A stretch of DNA of 8,967 nt from Chloroflexota bacterium (lineage in GTDB: Bacteria; Chloroflexota; Anaerolineae; Anaerolineales; Anaerolineaceae). The stretch covers positions 1 through 8,967 of the forward strand of contig JAEXTI010000128.1 of assembly GCA_023406965.1 (NCBI GenBank), given 5' to 3'. Position numbers and translations under genes: made by a program. Shown one piece after another: positions 5,422-8,753 of this stretch. The notes below the pieces were generated by a model. The model saw nothing but the letters and a program-made list of their open reading frames with translations, was not told where the DNA came from and ran no database searches. Position 1 is the stretch's first letter. Each line of letters begins with the position of its first letter.

Positions 5422-7476
5422 ATGTCCGTAGAGATGAAAAACAAACACAAACTCTCGCCCCGGTTGCGCATGTTTGCCAATGGTGACGAGGTGGTTAACA
5501 CGCTGCGCGCCGAACAGACTGCTTCACTGGTGGTGCAGAATGCCGAGCTGGCCGAGTCTGTTCCCTCTATCAGCGCCGGGCAAATGCAGGTGTTCAACAA
5601 TTTCTCTTTTTCCCTGGAGGCCAAACCACCCACCATCCGCCGCCGGAAATTAAAAGAAATCACCAACGACGTGCTCACCAACGTCTTCATCCAACTGGCC
5701 AATGACACCGGCGGCCCGGTGGACTTGCCGGACGTGCTTAAAGACCTCGACCCTCCGCCCATCCGCAAAGACAATATCGTCATTGCCACCATTCCCCTCT
5801 CCCTGTTGCCCGAATTGCTGGCAGCCCCGCAGGTCATCTCAGTCGAAAACCCCGAGACCATCCGCTTCTTCCAACCAGTTTCTACTGCTGTGGTGACCAA
5901 CCCACCTGAAACCGGAGAGCGCTGCGCAGCCACGCCCGCCACGCAGCAGCAAGACGTACTTATCGGCATCATCGACGTGCAGGGCTTCGATTTTGCCCAT
6001 CCCGACTTCCTCGACGCCGAGGGTAAGACGCGCTTTGTACGGATTTGGGATCAAGGCGGCGAGGGGCGCAAACCTCCCGAACGTTTCGATTACGGCTCCG
6101 AATTGACTCAAGAGATGATGAACTACGCCATCGGCTCGGAAGAACAATATAAACTGCCTCCCACCGAACTGGAACCGCAATCCGAGATGGTACCTGGCTC
6201 GCATGGCACGCATGTCGCCAGCATTGCTGCCGGAAACCGCGGCGTCTGTCCCGGCTCCAGGATCGCAGCGGTGCTGCTGGCCTTGCCCAAAGACGACCAG
6301 GAACGGCGCAAATCCTTCTACGACTCCACCCGCCTGGCCCACGCCGTCGATTACCTTTTCTGCCTGGGCAAGGAGCTGAACCTACCCGTGTCCATCAACA
6401 TCAGCCTGGGCACCAACGGATACTCGCACGACTCCACCAGCCTGACCAGCCGCTGGCTGGATTACCAATTGGCCACGCCGGGGCGCAGCATTTGCGTGGC
6501 CGCCGGTAACGCCGGGCAAGAAGCGCGCATGGCCCCCGACGATTGGGGCTTCACCATGGGGCGCATCCACACCTCCGGAAAATTTGAGGCTCCGGGCGAG
6601 GAAAGAATCCTCCATTGGGAGGTGCTCGGTGACGGGATCATGGACATTTCGGAGAACGAACTCGAAATCTGGTACAGCCCTCGCGATCACATCGCCGTGC
6701 AGGTCAAAGCCCCCGGTGCCAGCGAGTGGACCAGCCTGGTCGAGCCGCGCCAGTATATCGAAAACCTGCGCCTGTCCAACAACACCTTTCTCAGCGTTTA
6801 CAACGAAACCTTCATGCCCGCCAACGGCCTCAACTACATCGCCTGTTACCTCTCGCCGCTGTTTTCCAAAAAACAGGTCGTTGGCATCGCCGCCGGTTCC
6901 TGGCAGGTGCGCCTGTTCTCGCGCGAACTCCGCGACGGTCGTTTTCACGCCTGGATCGAGCGCGACGATGCCCGCCGGGCCGGGGTGATTGGCGGCAAGC
7001 AGGCCTGGGCCTTCCCTTCTTTCTTCGGCGAGCAAACCTACACCGACATGGCTTCGATCAGCTCGCTGGCCTGTACGAACTCGGTGGTGGCGGTGGCCAA
7101 CCTGGACGAGGCCAATGGAAAAGTGCACTACACCAGCAGCCAGGGTCCCACCCGCGACGACCGGGAAAAACCGGATATTGCCGCTCCCGGCACCAACATT
7201 ATCGCCGCCAACGGGTTTCACCCTGGGCAATGCTGGGTTTCGATGACCGGCACCAGCATGGCCAGCCCCTATGTCACCGGGGTGATTGGCTTAATGTTGG
7301 CGGTCGACCGCCAGTTGACTGCCGCCCAAATCGTGGGCATCTTGCATCACAACGCCACCCCGCTGGGCGATCAAGGCAGTTCCTGGCGCAATGACGCCGG
7401 GTTTGGGGTCATCGACCCGGCCGCCTGCCTGGATGAAGTTCTCAAATTGCGCACGCGCGAGGATATCAAACCATGA
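5422..7476 (+). CDS. Subtilisin-family (S8) serine protease with Csp-like insert, no signal peptide
   Basis: A 684-residue serine endopeptidase. The catalytic set is complete: Asp185 (GIIDVQGFDFAHPDF), His261 (GSHGTHVAS), oxyanion Asn363 (AAGNAG) and Ser612 (GTSMASP). Between the Asn and Ser motifs lies an insert of about 150 residues (about 380-535), with segments such as ELEIWYSP, GSWQVRLFS and GRFHAWIER. This layout matches the jelly-roll insert of the clostridial CspA/B/C subtilases. The first 175 residues carry no signal peptide; 86-150 alternate strand and helix (DNIVIATIPLSLLPELL, then QVISVENPETI) like a subtilase propeptide, so self-processing is possible. I infer an intracellular regulated protease. 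ATG 5422 follows GGAGG by 5 bases. The stop overlaps the MBL start by four bases (ATGA). The target protein is unknown; the coupled MBL protein is the first candidate. Confidence 0.93.
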   Translation: MSVEMKNKHKLSPRLRMFANGDEVVNTLRAEQTASLVVQNAELAESVPSISAGQMQVFNNFSFSLEAKPPTIRRRKLKEITNDVLTNVFIQLANDTGGPVDLPDVLKDLDPPPIRKDNIVIATIPLSLLPELLAAPQVISVENPETIRFFQPVSTAVVTNPPETGERCAATPATQQQDVLIGIIDVQGFDFAHPDFLDAEGKTRFVRIWDQGGEGRKPPERFDYGSELTQEMMNYAIGSEEQYKLPPTELEPQSEMVPGSHGTHVASIAAGNRGVCPGSRIAAVLLALPKDDQERRKSFYDSTRLAHAVDYLFCLGKELNLPVSINISLGTNGYSHDSTSLTSRWLDYQLATPGRSICVAAGNAGQEARMAPDDWGFTMGRIHTSGKFEAPGEERILHWEVLGDGIMDISENELEIWYSPRDHIAVQVKAPGASEWTSLVEPRQYIENLRLSNNTFLSVYNETFMPANGLNYIACYLSPLFSKKQVVGIAAGSWQVRLFSRELRDGRFHAWIERDDARRAGVIGGKQAWAFPSFFGEQTYTDMASISSLACTNSVVAVANLDEANGKVHYTSSQGPTRDDREKPDIAAPGTNIIAANGFHPGQCWVSMTGTSMASPYVTGVIGLMLAVDRQLTAAQIVGILHHNATPLGDQGSSWRNDAGFGVIDPAACLDEVLKLRTREDIKP

Positions 7477-8753
7477 GACTCAATGTATTTCCTTCCGATA
7501 AAGGCGACTGCCTGTTGCTAACCTCCGCCGACAATAAAAAAGTTCTCATCGACGGCGGCATGCGCGCATCCTACAGCCATTTTGTAGCCGCTCAGTTGCC
7601 CCACCTCGCGCGTAACGGTCTCGACCTGGTATACGTATCGCACATCGATAGCGATCACATTGGCGGAATCCTACAGTTAATGGACGACCTGGTTGCCTGG
7701 CGACGCTATGATTACCAGGTAGCCAACAACAACCCGGCCTTTCCTGTCCCCCAGGCGCCCCGTCCACCCCGCCCAAGGGTTATCTGGCACAATGCCTTCA
7801 AAGATCAGACTCAAGATAATAAAGGCCTCATCGAGGAGCAGTTGGTGGCAAACCTGTCCATCCTCAGCGCCGACACCCAGGTGATTGGCGAAGGTCTGCT
7901 TGACCTGCGCGAATCCACTGGCGATCTGGTCACCTCCGTCCGCGAGGGACTGCTGCTCTCCAGCCGGGTCAGCGCGAAACAATTGGGCATTCAAGTCAAT
8001 CCCGAATTCAACGGCGAGACCATCTTCGCCGAAAAAGCCGCGACGCCCATTCCTGTAGGCCGGATGAACATTCACATCATCGGGCCGCTCAAAGCCGACC
8101 TGGAAAAACTGCGCGAGGAATGGAACAACTGGCTGGACCGCAACCAGAAAACAGTTAAACACATTCGCAAAGAGATGGAGGACGACCCGGCTTTCGATTA
8201 CATGACCGAAGGCATGAAACTGCTCAGTTACATACGCAGCTTTGCCAATGCCCTCGGCGACCGCAACCTGGTCACCACCCCCAACCTTGCTTCGCTCATG
8301 TTGTACGTCAAAGAAGGAAAGAAGACTCTCCTGCTCACTGGCGACGGGCATTACCGCGACATCCTCAAGGGGCTCGAACAGCGCGGTTTGCTTGACGTCG
8401 ACGGAAATCTGCACGTCAACGTTCTTAAAGTCCAGCATCACGGCTCCGAGCACAACACCCACGCCGAATTCATACGCCGTATCACCGCCGACCAGTATAT
8501 CTTCTGCGGCAACGGCGCGCACAACAATCCCGATCTGAAAGTGCTGGACATGATGATCAACGAGCGCTTGATGCACGGTCCCACCTCGCCGTTCAAATTT
8601 TGGTTCAACAGCAGCGTGGAAAAAGCCGGAAACGAACAAAACGCCGAACACATGCGCAAAGTGGTTGCCCTGGTTGAAACTGCCGGGCGCGCCGTGCCCG
8701 ATCGCTTCAGTTATCAATTCCTCAAGCGGCCAAATTTATCGATCCGGATATAA
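7473..8753 (+). CDS. Soluble ComEC-like metallo-beta-lactamase-fold hydrolase, coupled to the S8 protease
   Basis: A 426-residue MBL-fold protein. Seen: the opening strand and DGG (LIDGGM, 25-30), the metal motif SHIDSDHIGG (56-65; His57, Asp59, Asp61, His62), LLTGDG with Asp291, and QHHGSEHN (321-328; His322/His323). The His-x-Asp-x-Asp-His form and the late HHGS motif are those of the MBL domain of the DNA-uptake protein ComEC, but here there are no membrane helices and no signal peptide. A long insert of about 180 residues (90-270) contains a Pro-rich stretch (90-101) and a charged, helical section (205-240, possibly coiled). Known relatives hydrolyse phosphodiesters or other esters; nuclease or phosphodiesterase activity is an inference. 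The start ATG lies inside the protease stop overlap, with GAGGA 9 bases upstream, so translation is coupled. Confidence 0.9.
   Translation: MRLNVFPSDKGDCLLLTSADNKKVLIDGGMRASYSHFVAAQLPHLARNGLDLVYVSHIDSDHIGGILQLMDDLVAWRRYDYQVANNNPAFPVPQAPRPPRPRVIWHNAFKDQTQDNKGLIEEQLVANLSILSADTQVIGEGLLDLRESTGDLVTSVREGLLLSSRVSAKQLGIQVNPEFNGETIFAEKAATPIPVGRMNIHIIGPLKADLEKLREEWNNWLDRNQKTVKHIRKEMEDDPAFDYMTEGMKLLSYIRSFANALGDRNLVTTPNLASLMLYVKEGKKTLLLTGDGHYRDILKGLEQRGLLDVDGNLHVNVLKVQHHGSEHNTHAEFIRRITADQYIFCGNGAHNNPDLKVLDMMINERLMHGPTSPFKFWFNSSVEKAGNEQNAEHMRKVVALVETAGRAVPDRFSYQFLKRPNLSIRI

Follow-up and report, generated by a model that had tools for sequence, protein, structure and literature searches.

A CspB-like subtilase paired across bacterial phyla with a ComEC-like metallo-beta-lactamase protein: a candidate protease-activated nuclease module

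What would a bacterium do with an apparently cytosolic protease whose gene overlaps that of a metal-dependent hydrolase? The question is raised by a stretch of 8,967 nucleotides from a Chloroflexota bacterium of the Anaerolineaceae (assembly GCA_023406965.1, contig JAEXTI010000128.1; the whole stretch is hereafter called the window), in which a gene encoding a serine protease of family S8 (subtilase) precedes one encoding a ComEC-like protein of the metallo-beta-lactamase (MBL) fold. Reading frames, Pfam matches (Peptidase_S8 at E=3.2e-30 and Lactamase_B at E=1.8e-8, both past the cut-off) and alignments agree with the two-gene layout given in a preliminary description of this DNA: both proteins are complete, keep their full catalytic or metal residues and are joined by an ATGA overlap. 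The protease also appears to be cytosolic, as proposed there, since its N-terminus has no hydrophobic signal-like stretch when judged by eye; secreted enzymes were set aside on the same grounds. On balance, we think it somewhat more likely than not that the pair is a self-contained two-gene suicide or arrest module, in which a CspB-like subtilase would cut and switch on an MBL DNase, probably against phages.

The pairing itself extends far beyond the window. From a scan of 84,980 genomes, one for each species, with an alignment of the MBL protein, we obtained 99 confirmed relatives, of which 80 were kept, at 78 distinct loci. The search patterns were built from the window's MBL clade, and the sample therefore favours that clade. 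Each locus was assigned to a class by its best-matching partner protein within ~1.8 kb. A subtilase adjoined the MBL gene in 69 of these 78 loci, all retrieved by the MBL alone: 59 carry a protease of the window's CspB-like type (S8a) and 10 a second type (S8b). The others have a trypsin-like protease (3), an E2-E1-JAB protein (1) or no partner (5, two of which, L019 and L061, lie at a contig end). According to the titles of the sequence records, subtilase-linked loci occur in about nine phyla (Chloroflexota, Acidobacteriota, Planctomycetota, Actinomycetota, Bacteroidota, Myxococcota, Gemmatimonadota, Verrucomicrobiota and Pseudomonadota). A wider MBL profile (A6) matched 9 of 398 genomes in the phylum of G003 (a Bradyrhizobium) and 9 of 297 in that of G002, centre genomes counted; its 19 loci had as partner a subtilase (9), a trypsin-like protease (2), an ABC-three-component gene (1) or nothing within the short stretch examined (7).

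The preliminary description took the overlap to mean that the two proteins are made in a fixed ratio. This does not follow, because the gap between the S8 stop and the MBL start differs between relatives: among 55, it is exactly -4 in 25, lies between -11 and +31 nt in 54, and reaches 208 nt in one. The functional partnership that the same description proposed is upheld by the adjacency across about nine phyla and by other evidence. The S8 and MBL protein trees correlate (r=0.889, computed without a species-tree control, for the 55 of 78 loci whose matches were of sufficient length), and none of 2000 permutations reaches this value. Clustering of the neighbours found no third gene common to the 78 loci. 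The largest further cluster (13 loci) was rejected as a third component: it is made up of minus-strand reading frames that mostly overlap the MBL gene and arise as artefacts of simple gene calling. The next clusters are small (5 loci, then 4, the latter patatin-like). Of 65 genes that come first downstream of the pair, 31 share its strand, which matches the expectation without an operon. One could argue for chance or lineage-specific adjacency without any functional link from the synteny of all genes among close relatives, but this is contradicted by adjacency in 69 of 78 loci from some nine phyla that share no other gene, and the chance explanation retains a negligible probability.

In the MBL tree, once the 8 MBLs of unknown partner are set apart, those linked to S8a and S8b form one clade of 86 tips. 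When the 8 are included, the S8a clade is impure because L019, whose partner would lie beyond the contig end, falls inside it (S8a plus L019, support 1.0); the S8b clade holds 18 of 20 (0.993), and 21 with the archaeal L064, for which no subtilase was found. The support for S8a, S8b, L019 and L064 together is 0.982.

Within lineages the pair is rare. Among 195 genomes from the genus of G003, five gave an MBL match, the centre counted; among 301 from the phylum of G001, one did, namely the centre itself. Full-length S8a proteases were found in the same 5 genomes of the Bradyrhizobium genus and in 4 of 249 of the family of G006, and the MBL lies alongside in 9 of 9. A sixth genome of this genus (L103) encodes a truncated S8a running directly into a short MBL remnant, i.e., a decayed pair. 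Eight further genomes (L104-L109, L115, L116) have only distant subtilases (26-31% identity), and no MBL in the short stretch examined. The patchy occurrence (5 of 195 genomes in one genus) fits an accessory module.

What kind of enzyme is the MBL protein? Its metal residues (H57, D59, D61, H62, D291, H322 and H323) are unchanged in 106 aligned relatives, so that the intact motifs of a ComEC-like MBL, as found in gated pro-nucleases, are all present. The metal motifs are 195 residues apart, against 66 in the ComEC structure 9ic4, i.e., ~129 extra. The best matches in defence libraries are LmuA, Avs1a and RTasMBL, all under the family cut-offs where such exist, and profiles and searches recovered as relatives Avs1a (L083, L086, L087), a Hachiman MBL (L088) and caspase-linked MBLs (L089, L136-L140). 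Judged by sequence, the protein is a relative of the 'gated' pro-nucleases that are activated by trypsin-like proteases or caspases in Hachiman, AVAST and Canu. Alignment with the MBLs of AVAST, Hachiman and caspase loci places two insertions at the gating positions. The stretch of residues 66-107, ahead of the first of them, has a median of 42 aa in S8a-linked MBLs versus 20-28 in other classes.

According to the accessible text of Tuck et al. 2025 (PMC12799240), the partner protease of HamM in Hachiman and of Avs1a-type proteins cuts at Ile residues of the loops, which makes the nuclease active; in Canu, CanAB activates CanC, and loops with a conserved Gly are proposed as the caspase cut sites. 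In our relatives, the Ile residues lie at 116/215 (L088) and at 134/235, 133/234 and 136/237 (Avs1a), near the published 118/218 and 134/234, and the caspase-linked L089 has Phe-Gly at 103 and 197; the correspondence with the published proteins was drawn by position and conservation. The residue at the first cut position (T154 in the window's MBL) differs with the class of protease. It is Ile in 9 of 9 trypsin-linked MBLs and Phe, Tyr, Leu or Met followed by Gly in 6 of 6 caspase-linked ones. None of the 86 subtilase-linked MBLs has Ile: 65 have Thr, Ala, Asn or Ser, and the remaining 21 Gln, Leu, Val, Tyr, Glu or His. The smaller classes have Thr (ABC-three-component-linked, 2/2) or Ile (NACHT-linked, 1/1; E2-E1-linked, 2/2). 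Ile is likewise absent from this position in a larger alignment, A2 (106 rows, with the partners of database proteins unchecked). At the cut position, the subtilase-linked MBLs thus match neither the conserved Ile of the trypsin type nor the Gly of the caspase type; a residue other than Ile is in line with a subtilase, because a different protease family would predict a different residue. The segment 152-165, which includes the predicted cut position, is less variable than the remainder of insertion 1 (mean entropy 1.59 versus 2.46 bits). These residues also bear on a scheme in which the protease and the MBL do not cut each other and instead attack a common target side by side, one its protein and the other its nucleic acid. 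The overlap alone is uninformative on cleavage and would suit such a scheme, but one would not expect the cut-position residue to vary with the partner protease if protease and loop never came into contact, and we regard parallel action as improbable.

The protease is a subtilase by its Pfam domain and its Asp-His-Ser triad (D185, H261 and S612), unchanged across 89 aligned relatives. The best matches of its profile among solved structures are the Csp germination proteases, and they span both the N-terminal part and the insert region: profile positions 102-364 align with residues 21-282 of the Csp structure 6mw4, beginning before the catalytic core, and one continuous alignment links positions 165-663 to the Csp structure 9pr9. 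The protease is not itself a Csp by the NCBIfam scores (139 bits versus 1250 for CspBA, 105 versus 675 for CspC), and a Pfam scan of 26 S8a members found no domain besides the subtilase. A motif at the N-terminus, LRM.ANG...VN..RAE (window 5422-5520), is strongly conserved in S8a proteases and corresponds to no known domain; it is a candidate regulatory element. In the part of the CspB study that is available (PMC3567191), the prodomain stays bound over a competent active site, a jellyroll insert is present, and CspB, which has been studied more than any other protease of this type, is required for activating the zymogen hydrolase pro-SleC. A restrained subtilase tasked with activating another zymogen would therefore be a design already known from CspB, in the present case with a nuclease as the partner.

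These likenesses suggest how the pair could work. In the resting cell, the MBL DNase would be an inactive pro-enzyme with its insertion loops over the active site, by homology with the gated nucleases, and the subtilase would be restrained by its bound prodomain, as in its relatives. A signal, most simply phage infection, would free the subtilase, which would cut insertion 1 of the MBL at or near T154-S155, and perhaps insertion 2 too. The released nuclease would then degrade DNA, and the cell would be arrested or killed. The data establish the pairing, the correlated evolution of the two genes, their intact catalytic residues, the gating layout that the MBL shares with its relatives and the class-specific cut residue. 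We infer the cleavage, the DNase activity, the trigger and the defence role, and the role against phages is the weakest step of the model. It had been suggested that the protease activates or removes the MBL enzyme by cutting its long insert. Action through the insert fits the mechanism of the relatives, as far as it is given in the accessible text of PMC12799240, and the class-specific cut residue; of the two outcomes, both of which we infer, activation is favoured over removal. A subtilase that removes the MBL, as an antitoxin-like or turnover factor, would account equally well for the adjacency and the tree correlation. We give it a small chance of being right: cleavage activates the nuclease in the tested relatives (accessible text of PMC12799240), the S8a clade can be explained without any MBL lacking a subtilase, and the decayed pair of L103 has lost parts of both genes.

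Several observations weigh against activation by cleavage in phage defence. All 86 subtilase-linked MBLs have Ser or Gly directly behind the cut position, and such a residue is not diagnostic of subtilases because it is common in nearly all other classes too. In the S8a clade, no conserved cut residue can be recognised in insertion 2, and in S8b this insertion is short (a median of 29 residues versus 55 and 64). The pattern at the cut position is confounded with phylogeny and may reflect one or few events: since the subtilase-linked MBLs make one clade, it is a single evolutionary contrast. No sensor gene is common to the loci. Finally, we compared 194 of 199 neighbour genes (the nearest two per side, those over 2.7 kb left out) with PADLOC at E<=1e-10. 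The control comprised 135 of the 144 genes on 20 stretches taken from five genomes that carry S8a. The families matched were 9 in 101 of the neighbour genes and 38 in the other 93, against 31 in the 135 control genes, and matches in the nearest genes show no clear enrichment over the control (judged by family tables). Among the matches listed, type I and type IV restriction genes occur only near the pair and not in the control. The expected proximity to defence genes is therefore not borne out statistically, though single loci do adjoin such genes.

The same chemistry could also serve the host. The pair might be a stress or DNA-maintenance module, responding to DNA damage or imported DNA, in which the protease activates the nuclease with no anti-phage role. 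The neighbours are mostly ordinary metabolic genes, the PADLOC matches do not exceed the control, and ComEC DNA-uptake proteins are among the nearest structural relatives of the MBL. The window's nearest relative (L001, an Anaerolineaceae metagenome-assembled genome; 93% identity for the S8 and 90% for the MBL) has the same flanking genes, and both genes are under strong purifying selection, since dN/dS between the two is 0.06 for the S8 and 0.08 for the MBL. However, genes so rare and scattered (5 of 195 genomes, and 1 of 301, the centre itself) are better suited to an accessory than to a housekeeping role, the closest named MBL families are defence effectors, and some copies are plasmid-borne, with Shedu or a cyclase/E2/TIR set as neighbours. 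We consider a host module unlikely, albeit the most serious rival of a suicide or arrest module. An MBL relative was found in 42 plasmid records, of which 29 are typed conjugative; four S8a plasmids were examined, and two are conjugative. On a Rhizobium indicum plasmid, a Shedu-domain gene, kinases and an AAA ATPase adjoin the pair. The phage search gave one weak partial match only, and the viral contigs one distant subtilase without MBL and no virus-borne pair; no DNA match was found in E. coli.

In the window, the pair has ordinary flanks: it follows a glyoxalase-family gene and a glycosidase-like gene on the opposite strand, and precedes a reading frame whose beginning is esterase-like by eye. 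The features of the two genes are collected in the table.

Table. Features of the subtilase-MBL pair, in window coordinates (residue numbers refer to the respective protein).
Feature	Position	Strand	Basis or remark
S8 subtilase gene, CspB-like (S8a), 684 aa	5422..7476	+	Reading frame and Pfam; PDB profile matches
Probable N-terminal prodomain, residues ~86-150, then variable linker	5677..5871	+	Alignment; limits read by eye
Catalytic Asp185	5974..5976	+	Invariant in 89
Catalytic His261	6202..6204	+	Invariant in 89
Insert inside the subtilase domain, residues ~368-540, aligned with the Csp jellyroll region	6523..7041	+	Csp structure 9pr9
Catalytic Ser612	7255..7257	+	Invariant in 89
ATGA stop/start overlap	7473..7476	+	Reading-frame ends
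ComEC-like MBL-fold gene, 426 aa, predicted pro-nuclease	7473..8753	+	Reading frame, library matches, conserved residues
Metal motif H57-x-D59-x-D61-H62	7641..7658	+	Invariant in 106
Proline-rich pre-loop, residues ~81-104	7713..7784	+	Extended in S8a-linked MBLs
Gating insertion 1, residues 108-155	7794..7937	+	Homologous to HamM/Avs1a insertion 1
Predicted cut position T154-S155 in LVTSVREG	7932..7937	+	Aligned to Ile116 (HamM relative) and Ile133-136 (three Avs1a)
Gating insertion 2, residues ~221-265	8133..8267	+	Alignment
Metal ligand Asp291	8343..8345	+	Invariant in 106
Metal motif H322-H323	8436..8441	+	Invariant in 106

The second subtilase-MBL clade, S8b, was found on plasmids (L090:3026-7293, L091:3541-9143, L142:1-6095, L084:4290-8428). 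Its neighbours there are patatin-like genes, DUF2235 or a cyclase/E2/TIR set that the annotation marks as CBASS-like. Patatin-like genes also lie near the pair in L007:15164-16750, L008:6620-7954 and L067:13190-14221, by similarity to the patatin of L072. At the NACHT locus L085:5998-10331 and the E2-E1-JAB loci L072 and L073, the MBL keeps the Ile at the cut position, and a trypsin-like protease was neither annotated nor found there; an unrecognised protease may act at these loci. In L141:4501-9981 and L123, a gated-type MBL lies beside an ABC-three-component system and Thr replaces the Ile. A Bradyrhizobium plasmid (L136:741-9279) carries a caspase-MBL (Canu-like) locus with DUF2235 on one side and, on the other, an S8 peptidase and an AAA ATPase, which we take to be IetAS-like.

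How new is such a system? The preliminary description called it undescribed, which is too strong because the MBL belongs to a superfamily of protease-gated nucleases that is already known (accessible text of PMC12799240): the pair is of a known kind, a gated nuclease with its protease, with a subtilase as the new protease type. The accessible text of that paper mentions further nuclease clades with 'other diverse families' of proteases and does not name subtilases there. No description of a subtilase-MBL pair was found in open-licence PubMed Central papers, and fig. S2 of PMC12799240, which lies outside the accessible text, may already show a subtilase clade. More tentatively, and with the odds rather against it, one cytosolic CspB-like subtilase could sense the infection and also activate the gated DNase, without a separate sensor, as a third, independently recruited protease family that acts through a changed cut site. 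If the activation model is right, subtilases would join the proteases that activate gated nucleases, without a separate sensor gene and thinly spread over many phyla, and one would have to ask whether a single protease can both sense infection and trigger the effector. It would also link the chemistry of bacterial cell suicide to the zymogen cascades by which spores germinate (CspB to pro-SleC). The analysis yields a residue-level prediction of the cleavage site (T154-S155).

The pair falls outside the known families with which it was compared. The PADLOC and NCBIfam scores are under the cut-offs, where such exist, for LmuA, Avs1a, RTasMBL and Csp. For AVAST type 1, the Avs1a score is 142 bits versus an NCBIfam cut-off of 420, and Avs1b and Avs1c would be required too; for Lamassu, the best PADLOC match is LmuA at 149 bits, and no third gene family is common to the 78 loci (no search with an LmuB model was made). 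Canu needs a caspase-family protease and three genes, and the protease here is of family S8. The Csp proteases (CspB; available part of PMC3567191) are the closest solved relatives of the subtilase, with alignable prodomain and insert and a zymogen hydrolase as target, but the partner of CspB is SleC instead of an MBL, the scores here are far under the Csp cut-offs, and the hosts are generally not spore-formers. The S8b loci resemble the window in having a subtilase immediately upstream of a gated MBL that forms a joint clade with the S8a MBLs; they differ in the architecture of the subtilase, the short insertion 2 and the occasional patatin, DUF2235 or cyclase/E2/TIR genes. As far as their accessible description goes (Tuck et al. 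2025, PMC12799240), Hachiman (HamM/protease-HamA) and AVAST (Avs1a/Avs1b) share with the window a ComEC-like MBL, two insertions at homologous positions and an adjacent protease gene. However, their protease is a downstream trypsin-like domain fused to the sensor, whereas that of the window is a separate upstream subtilase; here the cut-position Ile is absent from the MBL, and there is no HamB, Avs or SMC sensor gene. Canu, within the same accessible text, has a stand-alone protease gene upstream of the gated MBL gene, as in the window, but with a caspase in place of the subtilase, three genes instead of two, other residues at the cut position and an MBL of another clade.

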